31,072 bases of DNA, taken from positions 1 through 31,072 of the IMG/VR virus record IMGVR_UViG_3300018015_000024; one strand, 5' to 3'. This DNA is from a virus. Shown piece after piece: positions 3,942-26,174 of this stretch. Under the pieces are notes generated by a model. That model searched no databases and had not been told where the DNA came from. It saw only the letters and a list, made by a program, of their open reading frames with translations. How positions within the stretch are numbered: position 1 is the stretch's first letter; the number at the start of each line of letters is the position of its first letter. A program made the translations under genes and the position numbers.

Positions 3942-5851
3942 CGGAGCCCGTCCGCATCGGCGACGCGACTTTGTACACCGGAGACGTGCTGGCCGTGCTC
4001 GCCACGCTGCCCGACGAATCGGTCCATTGCATCGTGACCTCGCCGCCATACTACGCGCTGCGGGACTACGGTATTCCTCCGACCGTCTGGGATGGCGAGC
4101 CGGGATGCGCTCACGAGTGGGGGACGGAGTTGCCGCCGAAGCCGGGACCGGGAAACAAGCCGGGAGATTTCTCGACGTCCAGCCTCACGAATCCGCAGAG
4201 ACAGAACGCCATGGCGCGGCCTGCGTCATCCGGCCAATTCTGCCAACTCTGCGGCGCGTGGCTGGGATCGCACGGGCTGGAGCCGACGCCCGAGCTGTAC
4301 GTCCAGCATGAGGTCCAGATTTTCCGCGAGGTGCGCCGCGTGCTCCGTCCGGATGGAACCTGCTGGATAAACCTAGGCGATTCATACCAAGGCGGGCAGC
4401 GCATCGGGAAGCCTACCGGCAAGATCGACGGCCTGAAAGCTAAGGACCTCGTCGGCGTCCCTTGGCGTGTGGCGTTTGCGTTGCAGGCTGACGGATGGTA
4501 CCTGCGCTCTGACATCATCTGGGCGAAACCGAACCCGATGCCCGAGAGCGTGACCGACCGCCCGACGAAGGCGCACGAGTACCTGTTCCTGCTGTCGAAG
4601 TCGGCCAAGTATTTCTATGATGGCGAAGCGATTCGAGAACCGCATGGTGATAACGCATGGACTCGGAAAGGCGCTATCAATGGCGAAGTATTTGGACAGC
4701 ACGAGGCTATCGAAGCAGGAGAACGCGGAGATAGCAGAGCATGGACTCCCTCAGTTCGACAGTATAACCCCGCCGGCCGCAACCGCCGCACCGTCTGGAC
4801 CATCGCCACCGAGCCGTACCCCGAGGCGCACTTCGCCACGTTCCCCCGCAAGCTCGTGCAGCCCTGCATCCTCGCCGGGTGCCCCGAGCACGCCTGCCCG
4901 AAGTGCGGCGCCCCATGGGAGCGGGAGGTGGAACGGGAGCGGCTGAATCTCGACGGGACACCAAAGCGCGGGACGTGGCACCGCGATGACCAAGACTCGG
5001 CGGTCGGAGGCGGTATTTCGGGGATGAGCGTCGTACATACCGGCCCCGAGCACCCGACCTGCGCCTGCGGCCTCCTATCTTGCACTAACTGTGGAATGGT
5101 GATAGAATATCCCCATGACAAGACAATGCGTGGTATGCGGAAAGGCGTTCGAGACGAAGAAGCGGAAGGGCAGGCCGTTGGCACGGTTTTGCAGCCGGGA
5201 ATGTCTGGGCAGGGGAATGACAACGGTGCCGGAGAAAACGTGCCCGATGTGCGGGAAAAAGTTCCAACCGTACAGGCACCGGCAATTCTGTTGCAGCCGT
5301 CTCTGTTCTCAGAGATACGCGGCGAAGAATCGGCCGCAGAGCAAGGGCAAGTACAGGACGACGAAGGGCTACGTGATGATTTACAAGCCGGGCCATCGGA
5401 CAGCATCGCGGGAAGGCTACATCATGGAGCACCGGCTGGTAATGGAAATGGCGCTCGGCCGCTACCTGGACCCGGGGGAGATCGTTCATCACAAGAACGG
5501 GAACAAGTCGGACAACCGACGGGAGAATCTCGAAGTGATGGGCAAGCGGGATCACGACCGGCGCAAGAAACCGGAATGGATAGTGACCTGTCCCCACTGT
5601 CACCGGACATTCCCGACGGCGGGCAATGTCCACGATGTAGGGGCGCGCTGACCTTTCGTCCTCACGCCCCCGTTCCCGGAACTGTCATGGATATTTTCGG
5701 CGGCAGCGGTACTACGGCCGAGGTCGCGCTGGAGTACGGGCGGCGGGCTGTGCTCATCGAGTTAAAGCCGGACTACGTGGAGTTGCAAAAGCGCCGCCTC
5801 GCGCCCGTGGCAGGCCGGCCGCTCTTGAACTTTGCAGGAGGCTTTGAATGA
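3938..5851 (+). CDS. Beta-class DNA methyltransferase (N4-cytosine/N6-adenine type), carrying an insertion
   Basis: A 637-residue frame with the catalytic motif TSPPY at 34-38 near the N terminus and the AdoMet-binding motif FGGSGTT at 587-593 near the C terminus. This order is typical of beta-class N4/N6 DNA methylases (Pfam N6_N4_Mtase). The segment GRNRRTVWTIATEPYPEAHF and a Cys cluster (CPKCG, CACG) are also typical of phage members. Between about residues 380 and 570 the frame turns into low-complexity, Gly/Gln/Pro-rich sequence because an HNH gene lies there in another frame. The host frame stays open throughout. Whether the long product folds, or the enzyme is inactivated, cannot be told. 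The start overlaps the nuclease stop as ATGA, with GAGG-like bases upstream. Likely role: protecting phage DNA from restriction. Confidence 0.85.
   Translation: MTEPVRIGDATLYTGDVLAVLATLPDESVHCIVTSPPYYALRDYGIPPTVWDGEPGCAHEWGTELPPKPGPGNKPGDFSTSSLTNPQRQNAMARPASSGQFCQLCGAWLGSHGLEPTPELYVQHEVQIFREVRRVLRPDGTCWINLGDSYQGGQRIGKPTGKIDGLKAKDLVGVPWRVAFALQADGWYLRSDIIWAKPNPMPESVTDRPTKAHEYLFLLSKSAKYFYDGEAIREPHGDNAWTRKGAINGEVFGQHEAIEAGERGDSRAWTPSVRQYNPAGRNRRTVWTIATEPYPEAHFATFPRKLVQPCILAGCPEHACPKCGAPWEREVERERLNLDGTPKRGTWHRDDQDSAVGGGISGMSVVHTGPEHPTCACGLLSCTNCGMVIEYPHDKTMRGMRKGVRDEEAEGQAVGTVLQPGMSGQGNDNGAGENVPDVREKVPTVQAPAILLQPSLFSEIRGEESAAEQGQVQDDEGLRDDLQAGPSDSIAGRLHHGAPAGNGNGARPLPGPGGDRSSQEREQVGQPTGESRSDGQAGSRPAQETGMDSDLSPLSPDIPDGGQCPRCRGALTFRPHAPVPGTVMDIFGGSGTTAEVALEYGRRAVLIELKPDYVELQKRRLAPVAGRPLLNFAGGFE
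5080..5114 (+). promoter_or_regulatory. Sigma-70-like promoter placed to give a leaderless HNH mRNA
   Basis: TTGCAC at 5080-5085, a 17-nt spacer, then TAGAAT at 5103-5108. Six bases later comes the ATG of the HNH gene (5115), so transcription would start at about the A of that ATG. The HNH gene has no convincing Shine-Dalgarno sequence, which agrees with a leaderless message. The site sits inside the methylase coding sequence, just left of the insertion. Function is inferred from sequence only. Confidence 0.5.
5115..5651 (+). CDS. HNH homing endonuclease nested in the methyltransferase gene
   Basis: A 178-residue protein in a different frame from the surrounding methylase. The N-terminal part has zinc-finger Cys pairs (CVVC at 5-8 with Cys26/Cys30, CPMC at 43-46 with Cys59/Cys64). 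The middle has the HNH core: EHRLVME at 105-111, VHHKNGNKSDNRRENL at 124-139. A last CPHC pair sits at 159-162. This arrangement is that of free-standing phage HNH homing endonucleases, which cut uninserted alleles and spread by gene conversion. It starts right after a promoter-like site and ends at 5651, just before the methylase AdoMet motif resumes. There is too little extra sequence for a group I intron around it. Function is confident from motifs; activity is inferred. Confidence 0.85.
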   Translation: MTRQCVVCGKAFETKKRKGRPLARFCSRECLGRGMTTVPEKTCPMCGKKFQPYRHRQFCCSRLCSQRYAAKNRPQSKGKYRTTKGYVMIYKPGHRTASREGYIMEHRLVMEMALGRYLDPGEIVHHKNGNKSDNRRENLEVMGKRDHDRRKKPEWIVTCPHCHRTFPTAGNVHDVGAR

Positions 5852-10028: not shown

Positions 10029-10094
10029 CTGCCGTAAAATCAATTCCCGGCGTCAACGGATAGGGTAGAAGGGCGAAAAGTGGCCTGACGGCCC

Positions 10095-10133
10095 GGGGCG
10101 CGATCCTCCCAGGCGCGCCCCATTCACCCTTTT
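10095..10133 (+). terminator. Stem-loop before the terminase genes, possible terminator
   Basis: GGGGCGCG (10095-10102) pairs with CGCGCCCC (10114-10121) around an 11-base loop, and the sequence then runs ATTCACCCTTTT. A small GGCC-TGAC-GGCC hairpin precedes it. The T-run is short and 9 bases from the stem, so this is either a weak terminator dividing early from late genes, or part of a packaging (cos/pac) site, which often lies beside terS. The rest of the 117-base gap shows nothing else. Confidence 0.35.
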
Positions 10134-10145
10134 CTGGAGGGGACC

Positions 10146-10537
10146 CTGGGCAAGCTGGGCGAGCTCGGCAAACTGACTCCGCGCGAATCTCGATTCTTCG
10201 AAGCCTACATAGGCGGGGCGTCCGGTCAGGATGCCTATCTGCTCATCAGCCCGAACGCCGGAGATCATGCACGCAAGTCAGCGAGTCGCATGCTGAAGCG
10301 CATAAAAAAAAAGTCGATTGGCCGCGCCTCCAGGAGTCAGCCAACCAAGGCGAGATCAGGCTTCTCCGTGAACTCGAGGGCGTTCTTGGTTGCGCTGATG
10401 TTCGTGTTCGCATGCGTGCTATCGAGTTGCTTGCCCGCCTGCTCGGGAAAGATAAAGCCGAGATCGACGTCCATCACGATATCGTCGAGATCCGTCCAGC
10501 TCCAAAGCCTGAGGAGCCTGCCCCAGGTGACGATTGA
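10146..10537 (+). CDS. terS: Terminase small subunit, apparently needing a -1 frameshift
   Basis: The first part reads from a CTG at 10146, five bases after GGAGG; there is no ATG, GTG or TTG in a suitable place. It encodes KLTPRESRFFEAYIGG and then ASRMLKRIKKK, the usual start of a TerS DNA-binding domain. At the nine-A run 10304-10312 the sensible protein moves to the -1 frame and continues DWPRLQESANQGEIRLLREL, then VRVRMRAIELLARLLGKDKA, to a TGA at 10535-10537, giving about 130 residues, a normal TerS length. TerS recognises phage DNA and regulates TerL. The stop overlaps the TerL start. Without the shift the first frame stays open into TerL. A simple indel in the A-run is the main alternative to a programmed event. 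Confidence 0.7.
10304..10313 (+). other. A9G slippery site inside terS
   Basis: Nine A followed by G. In the incoming frame the codons are ATA-AAA-AAA-AAG, so the heptamer A-AAA-AAG (10307-10313) is exactly phased for -1 slippage, the same heptamer used in E. coli dnaX. A weak possible stem TTGGC/GCCAA (10318-10322 with 10340-10344) begins five bases downstream. Confidence 0.55.
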
Positions 10538-11780
10538 TTTCTCGCGCCTGCCCGAAGTCATCAACCCGGTCTATTACCCGTACCTCTGGGATCACAAGCG
10601 CTTCAACGTACTCTACGGCGGGGCGGGATCCGGTAAATCCGTATTCGCCGCGCAGCGGTTCACCTATCGCATGGCGACCGAGCGCGGGCACAACGTCATG
10701 GGAGTGCGCAAGATCGACAAGGCAAATCGCGACTCTACCTTCGCGCAGATGAATCAGGTGATCACGCTCTGGGGGCTGCACGACCTTTTCCACGTCACCA
10801 CGCAGCCGCTGTCCATCATGTGCAAGCACAACGGGAACCAGATGGTCTTCCGCGGCCTGGACGACCCCGAGAAAATAAAGTCGATCACCTTCGCCAATGG
10901 GCCACTTACAGACATCTGGATCGAGGAGGCAAGCGAGATCACCCCTGCCGACGATCAGCAACTCCGCCTGCGTCTCCGCGGATATGCCGCCGTCCCGAAG
11001 CAGATCACCTATACATTCAACCCGATCTCGGCGCTGCACTGGCTCAAGGGGCGCTTCTTCGACAACCCGCTTTCCCCCGATCGCGCAAGTGTACTCAAGA
11101 CCACATACAAAGACAACGCCTGGCTCGCCCCTGATGACCGCGCCGAGCTCGAGGCGCTCAAGGATGAGGACCTCACCTATTACCAGATATATGCGCTGGG
11201 CGAATGGGGCGTCATCGGCAACGTCGTTTTCTCGAATTATGTGATCGAGGATTTCCCGATCGACTATTCCGACTTCGACGGCGTGTATCAGGGCCAGGAC
11301 TACGGATTCAATCACCCCTTCGCCTTCGAACTCGTGGGCATGAGGGACGGCGAGCTCTATATCTTCGATGAGATCTACAAGCGGCAGCGCACGAACACCG
11401 AGGTGATCGAAGACTCGCGCCAGTACTTCGAAGAGCGCAAGATCCTCGAGCGCGTGCAGCGCGGCACAACGACGGGCGACTCTGCAGAGCCCGCCAGGAT
11501 CAAGGAGTGGAATCAGAACGGCTGGCGTGTCATCTCCGCAAAGAAGGGAAAGGATTCCGAGCGCTTCGGGATCGACTTCATGAAGCACAAACGCATGCAC
11601 ATTCACGCGAGCCGTTGCCCGGGCATCGCCGCGGAGATCCCGATCTTCAAGTACCGCGAGGACAAGAACGGCAACGTGCTCGAAGAGTTTGTTGATTTCA
11701 AGAATGACGGCATCGCCGCGGTGCGTTATGCGACGGAAAGCATTCACTCGCCGCTGATCGAATGGGGAGTTGTGCGATGA
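10527..11780 (+). CDS. terL: Terminase large subunit
   Basis: The packaging motor: an ATPase that pumps DNA and a nuclease that cuts it. I place the start at GTG 10527, overlapping the TerS stop and behind GAGGAG, giving 417 residues; the frame is open further upstream, but that part is the wrong-frame reading of terS. Walker A GGAGSGKS at 31-38, Walker B DIWIEEAS with Asp129 and Glu133/134. The C-terminal RNase-H-like nuclease has GQDYGFNHP with Asp258, GDSAEPARI with Asp318 and FKNDG with Asp394. The layout is that of the PBSX/Terminase_3-like group. It ends as an ATGA overlap with the portal gene. All key residues are present. Confidence 0.92.
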   Translation: MTIDFSRLPEVINPVYYPYLWDHKRFNVLYGGAGSGKSVFAAQRFTYRMATERGHNVMGVRKIDKANRDSTFAQMNQVITLWGLHDLFHVTTQPLSIMCKHNGNQMVFRGLDDPEKIKSITFANGPLTDIWIEEASEITPADDQQLRLRLRGYAAVPKQITYTFNPISALHWLKGRFFDNPLSPDRASVLKTTYKDNAWLAPDDRAELEALKDEDLTYYQIYALGEWGVIGNVVFSNYVIEDFPIDYSDFDGVYQGQDYGFNHPFAFELVGMRDGELYIFDEIYKRQRTNTEVIEDSRQYFEERKILERVQRGTTTGDSAEPARIKEWNQNGWRVISAKKGKDSERFGIDFMKHKRMHIHASRCPGIAAEIPIFKYREDKNGNVLEEFVDFKNDGIAAVRYATESIHSPLIEWGVVR

Positions 11781-18159: not shown

Positions 18160-18957
18160 ATGAGCGGACAGGGAATCGTGTACGTGCTCAAGAATAGACT
18201 TAACGGAAAGGTCTATGTCGGGCAGACCATGAAACCTTTCGAGCAAAGGCTGTGGCATCATATTCACAACAAGAAGCCCAGCATAATCGGGAGGGCGGTT
18301 CTAAAGCATGGTCTGGAAAACTTTGATGTCTCAATCAATGAGGCACCGGAGGAACTTCTTGACAATCTTGAGTGCAGTCTGATTTCCCTGTTCGGCTCCA
18401 TGGCGCCTAATGGCTACAACTTTGATAGTGGCGGCCATGAGAACAAACACGCATCCGACATTACCCGCAAGAAAATGTCTGATTTGCGTAAGGGGAAAAG
18501 ACCTGCGGGTCTGACATTTGCCGGCAAGAAACATTCCGAAAAGACGAAAAGCATGATTTCGGAAGCGCAGATCGGAGAAAAAAACCACGCATATGGGAAG
18601 CCCCGATCCCTTGAAGCGCGGCGAAAAATCTCTGAGGCATTTAAAGGGAAAGGGAATCCTTTTTTTGGGAAACATCTTTCAGCCGAACATCGAAAGAAAA
18701 TATCAGATTCATTGATGGGCCATGAATGCCCTCTCCGTTCGGCTGAGACGCGCAAGAGAATGTCGGATGCTGGGAAAGGGAGAATCTTTTCCGCTGAACA
18801 TCGGAGGAAACTGGCGGAAGCGGGGAAACGTCGCACGCATCCGATCGATGTAAGGCAAAAGATTTCTGAAGCCAATCTGAAAAGATGGGCCAAAGCGAAT
18901 CTTGAGCGAGATGCTCGAACAGGAATTCAAGGCCATAGGAGGGCCGAAGCATCATGA
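18160..18957 (+). CDS. GIY-YIG homing endonuclease with NUMOD3 repeats
   Basis: A 265-residue protein. GIVYVL at 5-10 and KVYVGQT at 17-23 are the GIY-YIG core, with Arg30 and metal-binding Glu71 in LECSLISLFG. From about residue 98 come repeated NUMOD3 DNA-binding units (KKMSDLRKG, RRKISEAFKGKGNPFFGKH, RKKISDSLMG, RKRMSDAGKG, VRQKISEANLKRW). The DNA is clearly more A/T-rich than the capsid genes on both sides, suggesting recent arrival. It is free-standing rather than in an intron. Its last codons read through the ribosome site (AGGAGGG) of the next gene and its stop overlaps that gene's ATG. It starts behind GGGAGCGG. Likely spreads by cutting uninserted phages at this locus. Confidence 0.92.
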   Translation: MSGQGIVYVLKNRLNGKVYVGQTMKPFEQRLWHHIHNKKPSIIGRAVLKHGLENFDVSINEAPEELLDNLECSLISLFGSMAPNGYNFDSGGHENKHASDITRKKMSDLRKGKRPAGLTFAGKKHSEKTKSMISEAQIGEKNHAYGKPRSLEARRKISEAFKGKGNPFFGKHLSAEHRKKISDSLMGHECPLRSAETRKRMSDAGKGRIFSAEHRRKLAEAGKRRTHPIDVRQKISEANLKRWAKANLERDARTGIQGHRRAEAS

Positions 18958-23498: not shown

Positions 23499-23918
23499 AT
23501 GGCCGAACCTGTTCTCACACTCGACACCCTGGAGCCCGTGCGGTCGTTCATCACGATCGACAAGAAGCGGTACGAGCTGCGCGACGCGGACGAGCTCACG
23601 CTCACGCAGACAGCTCATATTCATAGGCTCGCGCAGGAGATCTCTAACGCTGGGAAGCCCGAGGCCCAGGTCACCGAAGAGGAAGCAAAACGGTTTGAGG
23701 ATTTCGCGAATGAAATGCTCGCGATCGTGGTGATTGGCCTTCCCGATGAGATGCGCGACAAGCTGACCATCCGAAAGAAATATCAGATCGTGTCGGCTTT
23801 CAATGCCCTCGCCTCCCAGAAGTGGAGCACGGAGGTGGGGGAGGGGAGCAGCAAGACCTCGGACGGATCGTCTCAAGGCTCCGCAGATTCTACGGGGGTA
23901 CCCTCCGCGAGTGGCTGA
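23499..23918 (+). CDS. Tail assembly chaperone, short form (gpG-like)
   Basis: A 139-residue protein. The N-terminal part is an alpha/beta chaperone-like domain (SFITIDKKRYELRDADELTL, ANEMLAIVVIGLPDEMRDKL), and after residue about 108 it becomes a Ser/Gly-rich tail (GEGSSKTSDGSSQGS) that reads like noncoding frame sequence. This fits the lambda gpG case, where most ribosomes finish here and a minority shift -1 to make gpGT. The position between tube and tape-measure genes is diagnostic. Confidence 0.8.
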   Translation: MAEPVLTLDTLEPVRSFITIDKKRYELRDADELTLTQTAHIHRLAQEISNAGKPEAQVTEEEAKRFEDFANEMLAIVVIGLPDEMRDKLTIRKKYQIVSAFNALASQKWSTEVGEGSSKTSDGSSQGSADSTGVPSASG

Positions 23919-24163
23919 ACGAAATCCAGCTGCGCTGGGTCCGGGCGCACCTCGAGGCGCTGCCCGAGATAGAAGCGAATGAGGCTATGGCGGCGGCAGA
24001 GATAATCGCGATGGGCACAGGGAGTCTCGAAAAGAAAGACCGGGATGCAGTCATGCGGCGATGGCGGAAACAAGTTGATCAGAAGGCCCGCAAGACCACT
24101 ACGCCGCAGGACATGAAAAGCGCACGGGCTCTGATGGGGATCGCGGAGAAAAAGAATGGCTGA
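23822..24163 (+). CDS. Tail assembly chaperone extension (gpT-like), reached by -1 frameshift
   Basis: This frame is -1 relative to the short chaperone. The conserved-looking part is RFYGGTLREWLNEIQLRWVR to the end, helical and charged, which lies after the point where the first frame turns to low complexity. It begins with a GTG and no ribosome site, so it is more likely the C-terminal half of a fused chaperone. G-runs at 23837-23843 and 23894-23898 are possible slip points. The fusion chaperone would guide tail-tube assembly on the tape measure. It overlaps the tape-measure start. Confidence 0.7.
   Translation: MEHGGGGGEQQDLGRIVSRLRRFYGGTLREWLNEIQLRWVRAHLEALPEIEANEAMAAAEIIAMGTGSLEKKDRDAVMRRWRKQVDQKARKTTTPQDMKSARALMGIAEKKNG
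23837..23843 (+). other. Candidate -1 slippery site for the tail chaperone pair
   Basis: G-GGG-GAG in the phase of the first frame (codons GTG-GGG-GAG), allowing the Gly tRNA in the P site to slip back one base. It is imperfect as a classical X-XXY-YYZ heptamer. A second G-run at 23894-23898 (ACG-GGG-GTA) is an alternative just before the first stop. Confidence 0.4.
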
Positions 24164-26174
24164 CGCAGATCTCGGCAATGCAGTCCTCACGCTCACAACC
24201 GACGCCTCGGGGCTCGATGAAGGCCTGGAGAAAGCGCGGGGCGGCGCGGCTGATCTCGTCGCTGATTATGCCAAGGTAGTAGCAGGCGTCGCGGCGGCAT
24301 GGGCCGCACTCTCGACAATCAGGCAGATCGTCACAGACAGTTTGGATGCTTACAAGGAAGCAGGCATCCATCTGGCCGTCATGGGCGCCGCCTTAAAAGC
24401 AGCGGGAGACAATTCGGCCGGTTCCCTCGAAGGGATGAAAGACCTCGCCAGCCAACTGCAAAGAACGACGATTTATTCCCGAGATATGGCAACCTCTGCA
24501 GAGGGATTGCTCATTTCAATCGGGCACCTATCAGCGGAAGGCGTGCAAGAGATATTGCCCCACGTTGCAGACTTGGCGCAGGCCTTGGGAATCAATTTAG
24601 ATCACGCCGGCCGAATGGTCGCTCAGAGCCTGGACGGGACTCGCAATATGCTCTCACGTTATGGCATCGAGGTGGACAAGTCCGCCGACAGCTCGACGAA
24701 ACTTAAAGAAGTCATCGATGGATTGCAAGCGAAGTTCGGAGGGATCGCAACTGCCGTTGGAGGTGATGCGGTTGCCTCGATGACCAAACTGCAAAATGCA
24801 AACAAGGCATTATCTCAGCAGATGGGGGAGAGTTTTGCAAGATCGGCCCAGCCCATCATCGATTTTCTTACAAAACTGAAACTCGCATGGGCCGATGAAT
24901 TGAAATCTGAAAATGAATATTTGGTTTCTCATGCAAAGGTTTTAGCTGGCACCGCCTCCGGGCAAGATATCATCAACGAGAACATGCATGCGATTGCTCT
25001 ACTCCAAGAACAAATGAAACAACTGACAAGCAGTGCTTCGCTATACGTTGATGAGAATGGGAAACTGACCAAGGGCTATAATGATTCTTTAAAATCAATT
25101 AATGACCAAATAGTTGCATTAGAGAAACACAACCTGCAATTGTCGAACGCCTCGGTATATGCCGCTCAATACGCGGCGGAGGTGGCCAGGCAAACTCAAT
25201 CGGTGTTGGATTCGCAAAAGAAAGCAGAAGAAGCCTGGAAAGGCCAGGCCGAAGCAATGAAGACCGCCACCGAAGCCTTAAAAGAACACGGCCAGGCGAA
25301 TGCCAACTGGACCGACGTGATCATCTCGCGTCTTCGCCTCATGCATGACGCCACTCAGGGCGTCGATGAAATATCGAACAAGACATGGGCCGACGTTGCG
25401 AATGGTGCGAACGTTGCATCAAAGTCGGTTATGGATGCATCGCTGAAATATGCCCTCTCAATTAAATCAACCTTGCTGGGCGTCGAGAAAGATTATGATG
25501 AGGGGGCCAAGGCAGCCCAGAAAGCAGCCGAAGAATCCTTTAAAGCCTTTGAGAAATCTTTCAGGCAGATCGAGGGGGTCGTCCACACTGTCATGGGCCA
25601 ACTTTCCTCGATCTCCTCGACCTACTACCAGGGGCAGAACAATGCGCTCGATGCCTGGTATCAGAAACAGATTGCATCCCTCGGGGATATGACGAATGCG
25701 ACCAAAGCGCAGACGGATGCGAAGGCCGCGATCGACAAGGAGTACGCGGAGAAACAATCGGCACTGAAGAAGCAGCAATGGGAAACTGACAGGAGTATGG
25801 CCCTCGCGAATGCTTTCGTAAGCACGGCGGAAGCCGTGGTCAAGACATTTTCAGAGTTTGGCTGGCCCTGGGGCGTTATTCCTGCGGCAATCGTTGCAGC
25901 CCTCGGATCGGTTCAGATAGGGCTCATCGCTGGCGAGCCTGAGCCTGCATTCGCTCAGGGCGGCAGTTTCACGGTCCCGCCCGGGTATCCGAACGATTCT
26001 TTCCCGATGCGCGTGCAGAGCGGGGAGCATGTGAGCGTCACGCCAGCGGGCCAGGGCGGCGATCAGGTGATCCATAACACGCTCGTCCTCGATGGCCAGG
26101 TCCTCGCTGACTGGACTACGAGGGCAAGCCGCAATGGCCGCATCCTCACTCGCGCGCGATCGGTGGTGCCATGA
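24156..26174 (+). CDS. Tape measure protein
   Basis: A 672-residue protein. The N terminus has TTDASGLDEGLEKARGGAAD and is followed by long helical Ala/Gln/Lys-rich stretches typical of tape measures. A hydrophobic segment at 568-592 (GVIPAAIVAALGSVQIGLIA) precedes a Gly/Pro-rich end with QGGSFTVPPG and EHVSVTPAG, as in other siphovirus tape measures. At about 0.15 nm per residue it predicts a tail near 100 nm, a modest length. Codon and base use shift to A/T-rich between roughly 24400 and 25550, while both ends match the neighbours. ATGA overlaps on both sides. Confidence 0.9.
   Translation: MADADLGNAVLTLTTDASGLDEGLEKARGGAADLVADYAKVVAGVAAAWAALSTIRQIVTDSLDAYKEAGIHLAVMGAALKAAGDNSAGSLEGMKDLASQLQRTTIYSRDMATSAEGLLISIGHLSAEGVQEILPHVADLAQALGINLDHAGRMVAQSLDGTRNMLSRYGIEVDKSADSSTKLKEVIDGLQAKFGGIATAVGGDAVASMTKLQNANKALSQQMGESFARSAQPIIDFLTKLKLAWADELKSENEYLVSHAKVLAGTASGQDIINENMHAIALLQEQMKQLTSSASLYVDENGKLTKGYNDSLKSINDQIVALEKHNLQLSNASVYAAQYAAEVARQTQSVLDSQKKAEEAWKGQAEAMKTATEALKEHGQANANWTDVIISRLRLMHDATQGVDEISNKTWADVANGANVASKSVMDASLKYALSIKSTLLGVEKDYDEGAKAAQKAAEESFKAFEKSFRQIEGVVHTVMGQLSSISSTYYQGQNNALDAWYQKQIASLGDMTNATKAQTDAKAAIDKEYAEKQSALKKQQWETDRSMALANAFVSTAEAVVKTFSEFGWPWGVIPAAIVAALGSVQIGLIAGEPEPAFAQGGSFTVPPGYPNDSFPMRVQSGEHVSVTPAGQGGDQVIHNTLVLDGQVLADWTTRASRNGRILTRARSVVP

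Follow-up and report, generated by a model that had tools for sequence, protein, structure and literature searches.

Introduction

Among tailed phages, the best-documented cases of conserved recoding lie in tail and capsid genes. In the lambda tail assembly chaperone (gpG/gpGT), a late gene undergoes a programmed, conserved change of frame that yields two products with a common N terminus; the more abundant of these is the short one, which is made without the shift and ends at a stop codon. The -1 sites of E. coli dnaX and IS3-type elements carry the heptamer A_AAA_AAG. Thermus dnaX uses nine A's, and the Thermus thermophilus gene, like insertion-sequence genes with A9/T9 runs, gives products with a common N terminus from nine sense-strand A's by programmed transcriptional slippage (PMC1088944). 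Many bacterial genomes begin to show selection against slippage once an A/T run is nine long (Baranov et al. 2005, PMC1088944). Recoding has been proposed in a phage terminase as well, namely possible translational bypassing in Streptomyces phage Hau3, which occurs at UUA and not at an A-run and involves no TerS/TerL alternative (PMC5009743). Within the open-access literature, no report of a frameshift or slippage switch in terS was found, and the other cases of phage recoding among the matches examined concern tail, capsid, methyltransferase, lysis-gene and tape-measure examples.

Here, we describe a terminase small subunit gene (terS) in a virus record of IMG/VR; the 31,072 bases of this record are called the window below. 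Like the Thermus genes, this terS has nine sense-strand A's and products that would share an N terminus, and no other signal is evident; unlike them, it is a phage terminase gene, in which slippage would yield the normal single protein, and its absence a predicted fusion with the next gene. The correctly phased heptamer is shared with E. coli dnaX and the IS3-type sites, whereas no internal Shine-Dalgarno sequence or stem-loop was found at terS, a longer A9 is conserved, and one relative has A9C. As in lambda, the frame change is conserved in a late gene with two products that have a common N terminus, but the unshifted frame of terS runs into the next gene instead of ending at a stop. The class of slippage and programmed ribosomal frameshifting is already known; the gene, its conservation and the predicted TerS-N/TerL alternative product appear to be new.

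Layout of the terS locus

The features of the locus are listed in Table 1. The initial annotation, made from this single sequence, had claimed that the N half of TerS runs in one frame up to A9G, that the C half resumes in the -1 frame, that A_AAA_AAG is phased for slippage, and that the zero frame has no stop before TerL. A direct check of the frames confirmed each of these points, and the observation proved stronger than could be seen from one sequence. The N half reads LGKLGELGKLTPRESRFFEAYI...SRMLKRIKKK up to A9G at 10304-10313, and the C half continues as VDWPRLQESANQGEIRLLRELEG... in the -1 frame (from G 10313, GTC GAT TGG ...). By the reading frames, A_AAA_AAA is in phase as well as A_AAA_AAG. 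The unshifted frame of the window is open from ahead of the terS start to 11780, which is 488 codons past the site and includes all of TerL.

Table 1. Features of the terS-terL region, in window coordinates.
Feature	Position	Strand	Basis
Shine-Dalgarno GGAGGGG of terS	10136..10142	+	read directly; most relatives have a similar GGGAGG(GG) ahead of terS
terS N-terminal half, CTG start, helical DNA-binding region (predicted), frame 0	10146..10313	+	PHROG 51 match 1.5e-4 for the half alone; three confident model helices
Slip site CGC-ATA-AAA-AAA-AAG, A9 = 10304-10312	10299..10313	+	CGCAT-A9 invariant in nine lineages
terS C-terminal half, -1 frame, stop TGA 10535-10537	10313..10537	+	homology and purifying selection across nine lineages; PHROG 51 match of the joined protein
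Unshifted-frame linker, 71 codons, open into TerL	10314..10526	+	open in 8/9 lineages; sequence unconstrained
GAGGAG, likely terL Shine-Dalgarno, inside terS	10511..10516	+	read directly
terL, terminase large subunit, own GTG start at 10527, same frame as terS N half	10527..11780	+	Pfam Terminase_3 9.8e-48

In the window, the terS stop and the terL start overlap by 11 nt. Every lineage has a separate TerL start, preceded by a Shine-Dalgarno-like sequence in most relatives. Among the relatives, terS begins with CTG in five cases, with TTG in three and with ATG in one, which suggests low TerS synthesis as a further setting.

Relatives and identity of TerS

By TerL searches of IMG/VR, relatives at 73-87% identity were obtained, six of which have terS in view (L003, L004, L006, L007, L008 and L010). 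Two further relatives, L137 and L140, were added by a motif scan and are not independent evidence for the universality of the motif, which comes from the six TerL-found relatives and a codon-degenerate search. The contigs of these lineages stem from separate IMG/VR metagenomes. A near-identical contig (L133/L002, from metagenome 3300018018, with one mismatch in 14.7 kb) also has A9 and was not counted as a lineage. The TerS of the relatives is 36-63% identical to that of the window in the N half and 37-70% in the C half. The TerL of L140 is only 27% identical, and that of L137 belongs to a different Pfam pair (Terminase_6N/6C instead of Terminase_3/3C). In a tighter motif scan of the collection, ten contigs matched and eight proved to be this terS; L095 and L162 carry the motif, but in sequence unrelated to TerS. 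Alignment of TerL against prokaryote genomes revealed no relative, and among those genomes the motif matched only L161, a Bacteroidetes MAG whose sequence is unrelated. Cultured phages gave neither a DNA match nor a TerS match; the nearest cultured-phage TerL is that of Thermoanaerobacterium phage THSA-485A (49%), where TerS is encoded in a single frame and belongs to another PHROG.

In profile searches, the joined TerS matched PHROG 51 ('terminase small subunit') at 1.9e-5 for the window and 1.9e-9 for L008. Continuous matches across the junction were found in L140 (residues 9-127 on profile positions 85-220, E 5e-7) and in L004 (residues 9-133 on 88-228), and since a single profile match crosses the junction in these relatives, the halves are parts of a single TerS. 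Pfam Terminase_2 matched the joined protein only below the family cut-off. The gene lies directly upstream of terL, which is the position of a terminase small subunit gene. Among the nine sequences, divergence at codon positions 1, 2 and 3 is 0.41, 0.33 and 0.58 for the C half in the -1 frame, and 0.39, 0.35 and 0.57 for the N half in its own frame. This coding-type pattern indicates that the C half is a maintained protein and not debris. A structure model of the fusion is confident for the N-terminal region only, with three helices, and a PDB search with this model gave no match; the C half modelled alone has low confidence.

Conservation of the A9 run

Exactly nine A's in the same phase are present in 9/9 lineages. 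The six TerL-found relatives share the two-frame layout and CGCATAAAAAAAAA, followed by G (C in L010). This 14-nt block (CGCAT-A9) does not vary among the nine sequences, while agreement in the adjacent columns ranges from 4 to 9 of 9. The run has the nine or more A or T of a programmed transcriptional slippage site, and its length is kept where neighbouring synonymous positions drift, as at such a site. A_AAA_AAG is in phase in eight lineages and replaced by A_AAA_AAC in L010, and A_AAA_AAA is in phase in all nine. The codon-degenerate search with R[MK][LM]xRIKK[KN] recovered eight confirmed relatives, all within the A9 set, and no continuous-frame version. Relatives with A8 or A10 giving one continuous TerS frame, which the initial annotation had named as the observation that would speak against its reading, were looked for and not found, and within the collections searched the family is known only with A9.

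The probability of ATA AAA AAA arising from codon usage ranges from 0.001 to 0.12 per lineage, with a product of ~1e-16 when relatedness is ignored. ATA is kept in 9/9 lineages, though it accounts for 1-31% of Ile codons (P ~5e-6 for ATA alone with close relatives collapsed), and the heptamer A_AAA_AAG does not need it. The run is the only one of at least eight A's on either strand of the 31-kb window, and no other A/T run of at least eight occurs in any contig piece (112 kb in all). Six A's followed by G were seen five times in the window against 2.5 expected; the heptamer alone would prove little, and it is conservation that carries the weight. The need of TerS for a frame switch, as originally claimed, is supported by the A9 and phase shared by all nine lineages, and the switch is almost certainly real and selected.

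The unshifted frame

In 8/9 lineages, and across two TerL Pfam families (L137 has Terminase_6), no stop interrupts the unshifted frame before TerL. The exception is L008, which has a TAG about ten codons ahead of TerL, and the fusion is therefore not universal. Synonymous shuffling in the C half was uninformative for openness because the codon choice of the region itself already avoids stops, and draws from codon usage and segments of other genes therefore served as nulls. The chance of openness per sequence was 0.02-0.35 in draws from the codon usage of each contig and 0.003-0.25 in equal-length stretches of other genes on the same contigs. For six or more open frames among seven collapsed lineages, P was ~1e-5 and ~4e-6, with relatedness treated crudely. 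Fourfold sites are conserved at 41% in the overlap, 43% in the N half and 49% in TerL; as those of the overlap are no more conserved than elsewhere, no constraint on the linker peptide beyond openness was detected by this measure, and the linker sequence is free, with only its openness kept.

The predicted unshifted product is a single chain of 544 residues, made up of TerS-N, the linker and TerL. It is possible, as a tentative proposal, that this product is functional, with TerL carrying the TerS DNA-binding domain on a flexible tether and the slip site partitioning synthesis between ring-forming TerS and the fusion. Slippage may also set the TerS:TerL ratio, as first suggested; since TerL has its own start too, the switch would more directly divide TerS (with coupled TerL) from the TerS-N/TerL fusion.

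Alternative explanations

One might suspect an error of sequencing or assembly, or a pseudogene with a recent indel, as homopolymers are typical places of error and mutate easily. Given that nine diverged lineages, sampled in separate metagenomes, share A9 and its phase with one another and with the near-identical second contig, and that the C half is conserved as protein in the -1 frame (codon position 3 being the most variable), the probability of this account is negligible, and the indel in the A-run that had been offered as an alternative is contradicted. The two halves might instead be translated as separate polypeptides that then assemble, and the -1 frame of the window is open upstream of the site, which makes an independent start conceivable. 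Such a split TerS is nevertheless very improbable: the C half has no conserved start codon near the junction, several relatives have upstream stops in the -1 frame, the N half has no terminating stop in 8/9 lineages, so that a free N fragment would not be made, and the invariant A9 would be left unexplained. Should the switch be real, there is a slight leaning towards a reading, compatible with either slippage mechanism, in which openness only prevents early termination (through avoidance of Rho polarity, or through use of the TerL start) and the fusion has no role. The unconstrained linker, the L008 stop about ten codons short of TerL and the TerL start of its own in every lineage agree with it, whereas openness right into TerL in 8/9 lineages and in two TerL Pfam families exceeds what avoidance of early termination would strictly need.

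With regard to the mechanism of the switch, -1 programmed ribosomal frameshifting by a tandem tRNA-Lys slip on A_AAA_AAG or A_AAA_AAA would yield TerS and the same products, and it is a possible though not a probable explanation. In its favour, A_AAA_AAG is exactly phased in eight lineages and A_AAA_AAA in all nine (neither needs A9), and A_AAA_AAG has been linked to efficient -1 frameshifting in E. coli (PMC4066793). On the other hand, A_AAA_AAG would leave the kept ATA and the full A9 unexplained, and L010 has A_AAA_AAC instead. Searches for stimulators were negative as well: pseudoknot-free folding of the downstream RNA gave z-scores from -1.65 to +1.63 and no shared or conserved structure, there was no consistent Shine-Dalgarno sequence within 25 nt upstream of the slip site, and no hairpin was found upstream of it. 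Stimulators are missing at some proven -1 ribosomal frameshift sites, so that their absence does not rule the mechanism out, and transcriptional slippage tolerates a C after the run (A9C). The phasing behind the initial comparison with dnaX stands, but the full A9, the absent stimulators and the A9C of L010 agree with transcriptional slippage at least as well. The run appears to act alone, as it can in transcriptional slippage, and for these reasons transcriptional slippage (A9 to A10) is moderately favoured over dnaX-type ribosomal frameshifting, the latter retaining an appreciable minority probability.

Proposed mechanism

In the proposed mechanism, RNA polymerase would slip on the A9 template, so that some of the transcripts gain one A (A10, or A7/A13). 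The slipped mRNAs would encode complete TerS, whose end overlaps the start of TerL, so that TerL could be made by translational coupling. From unslipped A9 transcripts, a single chain would be made that joins the DNA-binding N-terminal region of TerS, through a linker of ~70-100 residues, to the complete TerL. The slip rate and the weak CTG/TTG start might together fix the amount of complete TerS relative to the TerS-N/TerL fusion, with a possible contribution from ribosomal -1 slippage on this run. In one reporter study, poly(A) slippage by E. coli RNA polymerase was low, and below detection in the constructs tested (PMC6260861), and the slip rate would therefore depend on the host or phage polymerase.

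Other features of the window and its relatives

The terS leader (window 10055-10131) contains an invariant AACGGATAGGGT in the window, L003, L004, L006 and L010, and also in L007. In the first five of these, it is followed by a likely branched RNA or inverted repeat, the main stem of which is GGGGCGCG/CGCGCCCC in some and GGAGCGCT/AGCGCTCC in others, with two compensatory changes noted by eye. Possible roles of the element are those of a late promoter, of a packaging site and of a control of translation. In L137, a leader hairpin 215 nt upstream of the slip site contains TTTTTTTATGCG, the exact complement of the slip site, which was not seen in other lineages; a 12-nt match between leader and slip site occurs in L137 only, and such pairing is not conserved.

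Elsewhere in the window, two overlapping ORFs (23499-23918 and, in the -1 frame, 23822-24163) with a G-rich overlap lie just ahead of a tape-measure-like gene (24156-26174) and are a probable tail assembly chaperone frameshift pair. A homing-endonuclease-like gene (18160-18957; PHROG 314, 1.6e-36) directly follows the major head protein gene. In L010, a further frame break in TerL at ~4435-4453 is probably an assembly indel.

Implications

Recoding, kept across relatives with TerLs of different families, appears to be required here by a gene essential for DNA packaging, which offers a testable means by which the stoichiometry of TerS could be fixed in a phage. Gene callers will miss or truncate TerS and mis-start TerL in this phage group. 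A natural TerS-TerL chimera is predicted, and if this fusion is functional, one slip site would serve phages with TerLs of different families.
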